A DNA stretch of 64,000 nucleotides, taken from positions 1 through 64,000 of the forward strand of contig JADZCV010000019.1 in the NCBI GenBank assembly GCA_020851375.1, in the 5' to 3' direction. Below are positions 32,989 to 37,602 of this stretch, in pieces. The notes beneath the pieces were generated by a model. That model saw only the letters and a program-made list of their open reading frames with translations, was not told where the DNA came from and made no database searches. How positions within the stretch are numbered: position 1 is the first letter of the stretch; each line of letters begins with the position of its first letter. Both the position numbers and the translations under genes were made by a program. Source of the stretch: Nitrospirota bacterium. GTDB lineage: Bacteria; Nitrospirota; 9FT-COMBO-42-15; HDB-SIOI813.

Positions 32989-33069
32989 GTAATTTTATAA
33001 ATTATACTAAATGGGCCAATTGTCAAATCTCTCTTTACAATTTTATCCCAAATGTATATATTCTGCCTC

Positions 33070-33579
33070 ATGGTACATATACTTATTGATGGATACAACC
33101 TCATGGCCAAGATGGATGGGTTGACAGGTAACTTTGAGGTCAGGAGAGAGAGTTTTCTCAGTACACTGAGCCAATACAGGACGCAGAAATTTCATGAGGT
33201 CATAGTTGTATTTGATGGCGAGAAGGGGGGATGGGCTGAGGAAAGTCATGAGAGGACGATGGGTATAATCATCATTTATTCGAGGCTTGGGGAAAAGGCT
33301 GATGACGTTATTAAAAGGATGGTAAAGGAAGATGACCTGAATTATACAGTCATAACCTCTGACAAAGAGATAGCATCTTTCTCTGAAACGCACGGGCATA
33401 CGGCCATACCCTCAGAGGATTTTATACCAAAGCTGCGAGGCAGAGGCAGTGCGTCTCCAGGGGAATGGAAGGATGAGGATAATGAAGATTACCGCCCTGT
33501 TACAGTAAAGAAAAAGGGCAACCCCCGAAAGCTTTCAAAGACTGCAAGAAGGCGCAAACAGAAGCTGGACAGATTATAG
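33070..33579 (+). CDS. NYN-domain RNase-like protein (YacP/Rae1 family)
   Basis: From ATG 33070 (MVHILIDGYNLM) the protein has 169 residues; six codons upstream in frame are unlikely to be coding. It is a PIN-like NYN domain with acidic residues in LIDGYN, VVFDGEKGG, ADDVIKRMV and VITSDKEIAS. The C-terminus is basic and lysine-rich (TARRRKQKLDR). Bacillus Rae1/YacP of this family is a ribosome-associated endoribonuclease. It starts a four-gene plus-strand run; the 14-base gap to lpoB suggests cotranscription. Confidence 0.85.
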   Translation: MVHILIDGYNLMAKMDGLTGNFEVRRESFLSTLSQYRTQKFHEVIVVFDGEKGGWAEESHERTMGIIIIYSRLGEKADDVIKRMVKEDDLNYTVITSDKEIASFSETHGHTAIPSEDFIPKLRGRGSASPGEWKDEDNEDYRPVTVKKKGNPRKLSKTARRRKQKLDRL

Positions 33580-33593
33580 AAAGGAGCTAAGAT

Positions 33594-34190
33594 ATGAAGT
33601 CATATTTCATCTTAATATTAATGCTGATCGCTTTCACCGCGGGATGTGCAAGCACCACAGTAGAGAGGGTCAAACCAGAGGAGGCTATTGATTTGAGCGG
33701 CAGGTGGAATGACACAGATTCCCGCCTGGTTGCAGAGGCGATGATGAAAGATTTACTGTCAAGACCCTGGCTTGATATCTATGTCGAAAAGAATAAGAGA
33801 CAACCTGCTGTCATCGTTGGCACAGTAGTCAACAGGAGCCATGAACATATAAATGTTCAGACATTTACAAAGGACATTGAAAAAGAACTGACGAACTCCG
33901 GCCTGGTGCAGTTTGTAGCCTCCAGTGGTGAAAGAGAGGAGATCAGGGAGGAGCGGGCCGAACAGATGATACACGCTACGGAAGAAACTGCCAAAGGGGT
34001 CGGCAAAGAGACAGGGGCTGATTATATGCTGAAGGGGGTCTTAAATACCATTCAGGATGAAGAAAAAGGTACAAGGGTCATTTATTATCAGATTAACCTT
34101 GAGATGATAGATATTGAGAGCAATGTTAAGGTTTGGCTGGGAGACAAGAAGATAAAAAAGGTTGTTGAGAAACGGCGCTTCGGTTTCTAA
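33594..34190 (+). CDS. LpoB-like outer-membrane lipoprotein
   Basis: The protein has 198 residues with a signal peptide and lipobox FTAGC (Cys18). The mature part follows the LpoB pattern: RWNDTDSRLVAEAMMKDLL, PAVIVGTVVNRSHEHIN and GADYMLKGVLNT. E. coli LpoB activates PBP1b from the outer membrane. It is followed 22 bases on by a COG3014 lipoprotein, a pairing found in other Gram-negatives. A direct PBP partner here is inferred only. Confidence 0.85.
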   Translation: MKSYFILILMLIAFTAGCASTTVERVKPEEAIDLSGRWNDTDSRLVAEAMMKDLLSRPWLDIYVEKNKRQPAVIVGTVVNRSHEHINVQTFTKDIEKELTNSGLVQFVASSGEREEIREERAEQMIHATEETAKGVGKETGADYMLKGVLNTIQDEEKGTRVIYYQINLEMIDIESNVKVWLGDKKIKKVVEKRRFGF

Positions 34191-34212
34191 CCTGAATACG
34201 GCGGGGATCTGA

Positions 34213-35547
34213 ATGAAGAGAGGTTTTTTACTATTGTTGCTGCTCCTTTCTTCCTGCGCCCCTGCTATTCATCATTATACCCTTATAAACAACTATCTCT
34301 ATCAGGGCCAGTATACAGAGGCAGACCGTATCCTTGAAAAATCAAAGGACGATTATGGCATCAGAAATAGGGTGCTCTACTACCTCGACCGCTCGATGAT
34401 CTTACACCTTGCAGGCAGATTCGCTGAGAGCAATGCCTATCTGGACAGGGCAGAGTCACGGATTGAAGAGTTATACACCAGGAGTGTGACTGCTGAGGCC
34501 GGCGCTATGCTTACCAATGACAATATACTCCCTTATGAGGGGGAGGACTTTGAAAAAGTGATGGTCAATGTTATTGGGGCGCTTAACTATGTTTACCTGA
34601 ATCAATGGGATGATGCCCTTGTAGAGGCGCGGAAGATTGATCACAAACTTAATACCTTCAGCGATAAATATGAAAAGAAGAATGTATACAAGGAGGACGC
34701 CTTCGCCCGTTATCTTACAGGCCTGCTATACGAGGTGAAGGGTGATTACAATGATGCCTTTATTGCCTACAGAAAGGCATTTGAAACATATAAGGTTTAC
34801 GAACAGGACTATGGGACACAGGTCCCGCCCGTGTTACCAGCAGACCTCCTGCGTTTGAGCGGATTATTAAATCTTGAAGAAGAACACGGCTTTTATCAGG
34901 ATATGTTTTCTGATGCCTCCTGGGTTGCTCAGGATCAGAGGACGTGGGAAGGTGAGATAATATTTTTCAGCCTCGATGGATATGCACCGGTTAAAACGGA
35001 TTACTTTATAGACGCGCCAGTCCCTGACAGTAAGGGAGGAATTTACCAACTGCGCATTGCCCTGCCAAAGTTTGTGATACAGCCGGATGATATTGAACAT
35101 GCAGGGATAACTTTGTTTGATTCCGGCGGGATGGCAGCCTCACAGGAGATGTTCCTTGCAGAGGACATTGCAGCAATTGCCGTTAAAGACCTTGATGACA
35201 GGATAGGCCGTATTACTGCAAAGGCTGTTTCGAGGGCTGCAGCAAAGTACATCGCATCGCTTGAAATCAGTAAGGCGGTTAAACAGGACACGGTTGCAGA
35301 CGTTCTCATAAAATTAGGGACGAATATTTATGCGATTGCCAGTGAACAGGCAGACAAGCGCAGCTGGCAGACCCTGCCGGCTCAGATAAGGATGGCCAGA
35401 CTTGCTGTACCGCCAGGTACATATACGCTTTTGGCAGAGTACTACGGTGCTGATAACAGGTTATTGATGAGAAAGTCATATCAGGTCATTGTAAAGTCCG
35501 GTGAGAAGGTTTTTTTAAGAAACCGGTACATTAGCAGACCCAATTAA
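34213..35547 (+). CDS. COG3014-type TPR lipoprotein
   Basis: The protein has 444 residues. A short signal with lipobox LLSSC (Cys15) leads into a helical TPR-like region (about 30-220: QGQYTEADRILEKSKDDYGI, LAGRFAESNAYLDRAESRI, VKGDYNDAFIAYRKAFETY). A beta-rich C-terminal part follows (RIALPKFVIQPDDI, RMARLAVPPGTYTLLAEYYG). The family is known mainly as the neighbour of LpoB-like proteins; its function is unknown. It is probably in the outer membrane facing the periplasm. Confidence 0.82.
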   Translation: MKRGFLLLLLLLSSCAPAIHHYTLINNYLYQGQYTEADRILEKSKDDYGIRNRVLYYLDRSMILHLAGRFAESNAYLDRAESRIEELYTRSVTAEAGAMLTNDNILPYEGEDFEKVMVNVIGALNYVYLNQWDDALVEARKIDHKLNTFSDKYEKKNVYKEDAFARYLTGLLYEVKGDYNDAFIAYRKAFETYKVYEQDYGTQVPPVLPADLLRLSGLLNLEEEHGFYQDMFSDASWVAQDQRTWEGEIIFFSLDGYAPVKTDYFIDAPVPDSKGGIYQLRIALPKFVIQPDDIEHAGITLFDSGGMAASQEMFLAEDIAAIAVKDLDDRIGRITAKAVSRAAAKYIASLEISKAVKQDTVADVLIKLGTNIYAIASEQADKRSWQTLPAQIRMARLAVPPGTYTLLAEYYGADNRLLMRKSYQVIVKSGEKVFLRNRYISRPN

Positions 35548-35624
35548 TAAGTGCCTGTATCTCTTTACAAAACCGGCAAATTGGTTTAACATAAAAACGT
35601 ACCTGATTTTATTGAGGCGCATAA

Positions 35625-36515
35625 TTGTCTATACTTCTGATCCTTCTTGTCCTTCCGCTGTTTCTCCTTTGGCCGGATGATGCATTTGCATGGGGACCGG
35701 CCACACATCTCCAGCTTGGCTGGCAGATAATAAATAATCCTGCCATGCTTGCTGCCCCGGTAAAACCACTCCTTGAGGCATTCCCATATGACTATCTTTA
35801 TGGTTGTATCAGCGCTGACATTGTGGTGGGTAAGAGATTTACCAGAGAATTAAAACACTGCCACAACTGGCACGTGGGGTTCAATGTCCTGAGCATGGCA
35901 GAAAGCCACTCACAAAGGGCATTTGCATACGGATATCTCAGTCATCTCGCTGCAGATACCATAGCCCACAACTATTATGTCCCTGAAAAGATGGTATCTG
36001 CCTACTCTACGAGATTCCTGCGGCATATCTACTGGGAAATGCGTTTTGACGCCTTATCGGACAAGATAGTCTGGGACCTGCCCCAGAAGATCATGAAAGA
36101 TGTACATGCTGACAATGACCCTCTGCTGGATAGCGTCCTTGAGAATACCCTGCTTTCATTCAGCACGAACAAGACCATTTTTAACAATGTTATGATGATA
36201 CACAGGATAGAACAGTGGCATAAAATGATTGGCAGGCTTTCATCATACTCCAGATGGGTATTACATAAAGAAGATGCAGAAATATATTATCAGAAGTCGT
36301 TGAACGCCATCCTGGACATGCTGCAGAGAGAAGAGTCGGCGGCGTGTATCAAAGAAGACCCTACCGGCAGGAAGAATCTTGCCCTGGCCAAGCACCTGCG
36401 AAAGAACTTAAAATTCATGAAAAGAAACGGTATGGGTTCCACCATTGTAACACCGGTATTTCCCTTCATGGAGGTTACAGATCTATCAACGGAGATTCGG
36501 AAAAACAGGTCTTAG
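35625..36515 (+). CDS. zinc-dependent phospholipase C-like secreted protein
   Basis: The protein has 296 residues from TTG 35625, with GAGG eight bases before. A signal peptide ends in DDAFA, so the mature protein would begin WGPATHLQLG; in bacterial phospholipase C the N-terminal Trp and nearby His bind zinc. Further histidines fit the family: HCHNWHVGF, FAYGYLSHLAADTIAHNYYVP. It belongs to the Zn_dep_PLPC family, whose environmental members are mostly uncharacterised. Its end overlaps the aldo/keto reductase frame by about 35 bases. Confidence 0.75.
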   Translation: MSILLILLVLPLFLLWPDDAFAWGPATHLQLGWQIINNPAMLAAPVKPLLEAFPYDYLYGCISADIVVGKRFTRELKHCHNWHVGFNVLSMAESHSQRAFAYGYLSHLAADTIAHNYYVPEKMVSAYSTRFLRHIYWEMRFDALSDKIVWDLPQKIMKDVHADNDPLLDSVLENTLLSFSTNKTIFNNVMMIHRIEQWHKMIGRLSSYSRWVLHKEDAEIYYQKSLNAILDMLQREESAACIKEDPTGRKNLALAKHLRKNLKFMKRNGMGSTIVTPVFPFMEVTDLSTEIRKNRS

Positions 36516-37602
36516 CATTTCACTCCTGACCTTCGGGGCAATGCAATTGCCTGATGTTCCGGAGGAGCAGGCGGTCGCTACAGTCCACCGGGCAAATGAA
36601 CTCGGTATTAATCACTTTGAGACTGCACGGGGTTATGCCAACAGTGAAGAGATACTCGGGAGGGCGCTTAAGGGCTTTGACAGGTCTCAATATTTCCTCA
36701 CAACCAAGATTACGCCAAAACACTACCAGAACTACAGGGCATATATAGAAGAATCATTGATGCGACTGCAGGTGGACTATCTCGACAACTTCGACATTCA
36801 CGGCATAAATAATGACGAGCAGATTAACCTTACGCTTATGAAGGGAGGTGTGCTTGAAACCGTGAGAAAGGCTATGTCAGAAGGCCTGATAAGGCATATT
36901 GGATTTTCATCGCATGGGCCTGTCGAAGTGATACTGAAAACAATGGGAACTGGTGAGTTCGAATCAGTAAACCTGCACTACTACTACTTCAATCAGAGGA
37001 ATCTTGCTGCAATTAAACTCGCTTGCGAGATGGACATGGGTGTGCTTATTATTTCACCTACGGACAAGGGGGGACAACTTCATAAGGCCCCCGAACTATT
37101 AAAGAGACTTTCCACCCCCTATCATCCGATAACCATTAATGACCGTTTTTGTCTATCACATCCTGAAGTAACGACAGTTACTGTCGGCGCAGCGCATCCT
37201 GATGAATTTAACCCCCACTTAAAGGCAGTGGAAATTGAAGGTGTGTTAAGACCAGAGGAACAGGAGATTATTAAACGACTCGATGCACAGTACGACAAAC
37301 TTGGAAGCACATTATGCACCTTTTGTCATAAATGCCTCCCCTGCCCCGAACAGATCAACATTCCTGAGGTGTTAAGACTCAGGAACATTGCAATTGCCTT
37401 TGATATGACAGAGTTCGGCAAATACCGCTACAGGATGTTCGAAAATGCAGACCACTGGTTCTGGGGGAAAAAGGCAACTTGTTGCACGAGGTGCAACGAC
37501 TGCCTTCCGCGATGCCCTGAAAGACTCAACATACCGGATTTACTAATAGAAGCCCACAAAATATTTTCATCCGGTGAAGGAAAAAGGAAGTGGAAAGACT
37601 AA
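36481..37602 (+). CDS. aldo/keto reductase with C-terminal 4Fe-4S domain; start codon unusual
   Basis: The family N-terminus is encoded from 36481 (ATC): IYQRRFGKTGLSISLLTFGAM, which then joins the frame from ATG 36541. A GGAGG site (36470-36474) is ideally spaced six bases before ATC 36481. No ATG, GTG or TTG precedes the conserved part, because TAA at 36448 closes the frame. A NADPH-dependent reductase barrel (DYLDNFDIHG, HIGFSSHGP, GVLIISPTDKGG) is followed by two cysteine clusters, CTFCHKCLPCP and CCTRCNDCLPRCP. The substrate is unknown. If ATC is not used, translation would begin at 36541 and lose the first strand. Confidence 0.78.
   Translation: MYQRRFGKTGLSISLLTFGAMQLPDVPEEQAVATVHRANELGINHFETARGYANSEEILGRALKGFDRSQYFLTTKITPKHYQNYRAYIEESLMRLQVDYLDNFDIHGINNDEQINLTLMKGGVLETVRKAMSEGLIRHIGFSSHGPVEVILKTMGTGEFESVNLHYYYFNQRNLAAIKLACEMDMGVLIISPTDKGGQLHKAPELLKRLSTPYHPITINDRFCLSHPEVTTVTVGAAHPDEFNPHLKAVEIEGVLRPEEQEIIKRLDAQYDKLGSTLCTFCHKCLPCPEQINIPEVLRLRNIAIAFDMTEFGKYRYRMFENADHWFWGKKATCCTRCNDCLPRCPERLNIPDLLIEAHKIFSSGEGKRKWKD

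Follow-up and report, generated by a model that had tools for sequence, protein, structure and literature searches.

The analyzed stretch, referred to in full as the window, comprises 64,000 nucleotides of a Nitrospirota genome, a draft, metagenome-type assembly of 49 contigs with 98% completeness. Its forward strand carries an aldo/keto reductase (AKR) gene that overlaps an upstream phospholipase C-like gene, with the following features.

35625..36515, + strand: upstream gene, Zn-dependent phospholipase C-like (PF00882, E 4.1e-22), a common neighbor in the six orthologues compared
36470..36474, + strand: GGAGG, Shine-Dalgarno sequence 6 bases 5' of the ATC, invariant and with equal spacer in the six family orthologues
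36481..36483, + strand: ATC, proposed AKR start codon, found in 6/6 start-readable family orthologues, with ATG here in Desmonostoc L004
36481..36515, + strand: 35 bases shared by the two genes, each in its own frame, marked by an upstream stop equally placed in 6/6 and by codon-difference counts
36481..37602, + strand: aldo/keto reductase coding sequence with two C-terminal cysteine motifs (PF00248; all eight cysteines of the motifs kept throughout a six-protein alignment)
36541..36543, + strand: first canonical ATG, a conserved Met21 and unlikely start (Met and eight preceding residues invariant in the six aligned proteins)

The AKR frame is open from the TAA at 36448-36450 to the stop codon at 37600-37602, and the codons after the TAA read CAC CGG TAT TTC CCT TCA TGG AGG TTA CAG ATC TAT CAA CGG AGA TTC. 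A first-pass annotation had reported that the N-terminal residues are encoded upstream of the first ATG, that no ATG, GTG, or TTG follows the TAA, and that a GGAGG lies six bases before the ATC. All three statements hold. The residues are as that annotation gave them, a scan of the frame from the TAA to the ATG at 36541 found none of the three codons, and the GGAGG is followed by a spacer at 36475-36480. The ATG at 36541 is the earliest ATG, GTG, or TTG in the frame and is codon 21 when the ATC is counted as codon 1. No Shine-Dalgarno sequence was seen before it. The local RNA fold was not more stable than those of shuffled sequences (z 0.07).

The PF00248 match (E 8.3e-31, 107.6 bits with a cutoff of 24) places the protein in the aldo/keto reductase superfamily. 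In an alignment of six proteins, a set that includes the Desmonostoc homologue, Tyr52, Lys76, and His107 are invariant and presumably belong to the AKR catalytic set Asp-Tyr-Lys-His. At the place expected for the catalytic Asp (36619-36621), all six proteins, that of Desmonostoc included, apparently have a Glu (Glu47). The stretch 37315-37518 encodes two cysteine motifs, Cys279/282/285/288 and Cys335/338/341/345, which are 4Fe-4S ferredoxin-like and invariant in the six aligned proteins; the Fer4_9 match is subthreshold (22.8 bits versus a curated cutoff of 27). An AlphaFold model of the reductase has a mean pLDDT of 53, with residues 1 to 25 under 50.

Start region of the reductase gene in orthologues and homologues

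The family set consisted of 10 genomes, including that of the window, and the reductase was found in 7 of them. The start could be compared in six orthologues spanning four genera, namely, the window (G000), L002 (genome G001), L003 (G004), L007 (G005), L008 (G009), and L009 (G007). G002 was left out because its contig begins within the reductase gene, and in G008 the upstream gene is present and the locus stops short of the overlap. L005 and L006, whose contigs have the lengths of those of L002 and L003, seem to be the same contigs, and each was counted once. In L009, an insert with C and G runs at about 2068-2116 disrupts the reductase frame downstream of the start.

The ATC, the GGAGG, the 6-base spacer, and the position at which the upstream gene ends are all kept in the six orthologues. 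From -60 to +2, 15 of the 63 alignment columns are invariant, and these include all eight columns of GGAGG and ATC. If columns are taken as exchangeable, the probability that eight named columns are all invariant is about 1.7e-6, a value that ignores relatedness, concerns columns named post hoc, and serves as a guide only; the conservation statistics rest on few sequences, six related ones. In the window and L002, the frame runs from the upstream in-frame stop to the ATC without a canonical start. In the other four orthologues (L003, L007, L008, and L009), the frame contains a TTG or GTG 5' of the Shine-Dalgarno sequence, unconserved and at four different distances.

Outside the family, ATG occupies precisely the position of the ATC codon in a homologue from Desmonostoc (L004, 49% identical), in agreement with the first-pass view that the ATC lies where homologues begin. 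Its reductase is orthologue-like and shares the cysteine motifs, but unlike that of the window it starts with ATG, its 5' sequence is noncoding in the AKR frame, and it has no comparable overlap. The same annotation had recommended a search for relatives with ATG at this codon; the Desmonostoc gene has it, and none of the six family orthologues does (all have ATC). Of the 24 loci entered in this comparison, 6 without a match were left out. Among distant Nitrospirota homologues, ATG stands at the ATC-equivalent codon in 8 of the 17 aligned, with a canonical codon farther upstream in each of the remaining 9. L014 and L015, both among the nine, carry ATC here as an ordinary Ile codon, which speaks against too simple a reading of the ATC as a start. 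Taken as a whole, the proposal of rare ATC initiation gains from the four features kept in 6/6 and from the Desmonostoc ATG, with the qualification that 4/6 relatives also have the upstream TTG or GTG.

Overlap with the upstream gene and alternative explanations

The ATC precedes the upstream stop codon by 29 bases, and the position of this stop is kept in 6/6 orthologues despite three stop codon types. Within the overlap, AKR codons 2 to 11 show 39 synonymous versus 28 nonsynonymous codon differences over 15 pairs, and the upstream frame (11 codons, including the stop) shows 18 versus 66. By AKR codon position (1, 2, and 3), the differences number 29, 27, and 52 in the overlap and 56, 54, and 314 past it. 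Because substitutions in the overlap fit the AKR frame, the comparison indicates that this frame is under constraint and is read before the upstream stop. The signal is weaker inside the overlap than past it, which would be expected for DNA that serves two frames.

Homologues of the upstream protein were found in 171 of 395 genomes of the phylum. Outside the family, none among the matches listed reaches residue 286, where the overlap begins, so these homologues could not separate the constraints on the two frames. Past about residue 250 (36376-36515), the phospholipase-like protein has a C-terminal tail that is missing from most of the listed matches in other parts of the phylum. Gene order 5' of the phospholipase-like gene is variable (33052-36515), with LpoB-like and TPR-like genes retained in L002, and in L003, L007, and L008 the nearest upstream match is the window's open reading frame (ORF) at 33052-33579.

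The alternative that survives best, though we regard it as unlikely, is that the ATC is retained solely for the overlapping upstream protein and that the reductase starts at a nearby near-cognate codon or at one of the unconserved upstream TTG or GTG codons. Read in the upstream frame, the ATC belongs to a Tyr, His, or Asp codon and then to a Pro or Leu codon, which favors C; this C is the first base of a Pro or Leu codon in 6/6, and the upstream frame may help to keep it. The T is left unexplained, as it could be C and still give Tyr, His, or Asp in the upstream frame, yet it is T in all six. The upstream tail is also poorly kept, with 10 synonymous versus 54 nonsynonymous differences in the seven codons before the ATC. 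The TTG and GTG codons of four orthologues would fit such a start, but they precede the Shine-Dalgarno sequence at differing distances, and no codon of this kind occurs in that part of the reductase frame in the window or L002.

The first-pass annotation had offered a frameshift fusion with the upstream gene as the other way to explain the locus. In the form considered here, ribosomes would shift +1 out of the upstream frame to read the reductase, either at a programmed site or through an assembly indel. The out-of-frame overlap in 6/6 orthologues is compatible with such a shift, but the comparison gave it no support, and we consider it very improbable. The six orthologues share the position of the upstream stop, in three stop codon types, and the AKR frame appears constrained ahead of it. 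An indel would need to have recurred in six genomes, and no slippery site was recognized on inspection by eye.

Even less credible is a shortened reductase starting at ATG 36541, the first canonical start and a Met codon in all six orthologues. Residues 4, 6 to 9, 11, 14, and 19 ahead of it are invariant in the aligned proteins, including that of Desmonostoc, the ATG lacks a Shine-Dalgarno sequence, and alignments to the best solved relatives (9yeb, 9w6y, and 1ynp) begin before Met21. We assume from the AKR fold that a start here would remove the first barrel strand. A single-base sequencing or assembly error in an ATG, conceivable in a draft metagenome-type assembly, has a negligible chance against ATC in six separately assembled genomes. 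In sum, sequencing error, a lone indel, and frameshift fusion are all unlikely because none of the 6 orthologues departs from the ATC, the GGAGG, the spacer, or the overlap and because the substitutions in the overlap fit the AKR frame.

Noncanonical starts in this genome, the phylum, and other bacteria

We searched for similar starts in a sample of the same genome that consisted of the window and 20 further stretches (284,680 bases), in total 348,680 bases or about 11% of the genome. The sample held 278 kept ORFs of at least 150 codons, and in 103 of them the first canonical codon lies at least 8 codons in. Within the 348,680 bases, the window reductase is the sole ORF of this length in which GGAGG or AGGAG is combined with an ATC that the first canonical codon follows at a distance of at least 15 codons. 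Two further candidates were compared across the 10 family genomes and rejected. L109 2667-3158, with GGAGG and CTG, belongs to a 1,050-codon frame in both matching relatives. L108 11499-12233, with ATC and no more than AGGA, is interrupted by an in-frame stop in each of five aligned relatives (four of five in another alignment) and looks like an antisense shadow. Four other ORFs (in L105, L107, L108, and L112) all have Pfam matches with domains internal to the ORF, which leaves their starts unsettled, and further ATC genes may exist in this genome.

In the same family, the translation initiation factor gene infC (encoding IF3) has ATC in all nine readable loci (L042 to L050), where no canonical start follows the in-frame stop; a tenth, L051, reads N at the start and was not counted. 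Elsewhere in the phylum, infC was compared at 29 other loci (L075 to L103), of which 25 were motif readable. Between the stop and the motif, 12 of these have no ATG, GTG, or TTG, and the other 13 have at least one, some inside the protein; ATA, ATT, or ATC stands at the start place in many. Because of this split, infC AUH starts (AUU, AUC, or AUA) appear to be common in the phylum but not universal, other options occurring as well. Both infC and the reductase gene, if the latter starts as proposed, combine an AUH start with a Shine-Dalgarno sequence, and in this family both have ATC, without a canonical start in the nine readable infC loci and, for the reductase, in the window and L002. They differ in that infC encodes the codon-reading factor itself and so is autoregulated, the AUU start of Escherichia coli infC being described as required for its autocontrol (PMC9845219), whereas the reductase is metabolic and its gene overlaps a neighbor.

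None of the papers listed by our literature searches showed a bacterial aldo/keto reductase with an ATC start. Outside infC, E. coli pcnB starts at AUU; like the reductase it is a non-infC gene with an AUH start, and it differs in codon, gene, and lineage. A survey of 36 genome groups recorded a switch from AUG to AUU in 1 of 61,358 ancestral AUG starts, with AUC unmentioned in the account cited here (PMC5622118). Close parallels are Staphylococcus aureus cvfC1 (AUU) and ccpN (AUA), described as conserved noncanonical starts with extended Shine-Dalgarno sequences and an output of about 10% of that of AUG in poor medium; in rich medium, ccpN reached as much as 30% (PMC13009471). They share with the reductase a conserved noncanonical start outside infC and a strong Shine-Dalgarno sequence. 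They differ in that their initiation was shown by ribosome profiling and reporters (PMC13009471), whereas the reductase is known here from its sequence, and in that they are other genes that pair extended motifs with AUU or AUA, whereas the reductase has a plain GGAGG core, AUC, and a two-gene overlap. For a metabolic gene to keep an ATC in this position is unusual, yet of a kind already known from the AUH starts of infC, cvfC1, and ccpN.

A probable weak AUC start and its possible regulation

We favor, with a probability of about 0.85, the explanation that the reductase has a conserved weak AUC start with a strong Shine-Dalgarno sequence, probably IF3 sensitive and coupled to the upstream gene. 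From the conserved arrangement we infer initiation at the ATC, an N-terminal Met, low output, IF3 sensitivity, and coupling. The strong GGAGG, six bases 5', would position the 30S subunit, and initiator tRNA would read the ATC at 36481, so that the protein should begin with Met and not Ile. The imperfect third-base pair would make the start weak and prone to rejection by IF3, which is described in general terms as rejecting weak codon-anticodon pairs (PMC10158994). Ribosomes translating the upstream gene would traverse the start site and stop 29 bases past the ATC. Coupling over the 35-base overlap would be possible because ribosomes have been described as able to scan in both directions after termination (PMC2268962). 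The likely outcome would be a low reductase output linked to that of the neighbor.

A bolder and decidedly tentative extension, which we think doubtful but worth stating, is a family "AUC regulon" in which reductase synthesis would follow free IF3, and with it the state of the translation machinery, through the rare start codon that its gene would share with infC, with the overlap adding coupling. If this were true, the AUC would be a selected regulatory signal, beyond a merely tolerated weak start. For annotation, gene callers that accept only ATG, GTG, and TTG would trim the first 20 residues of the reductase. An ATC-start metabolic gene kept over four genera, in a family whose infC also starts with ATC, would offer a natural test of whether IF3-dependent control keeps non-AUG starts in place.
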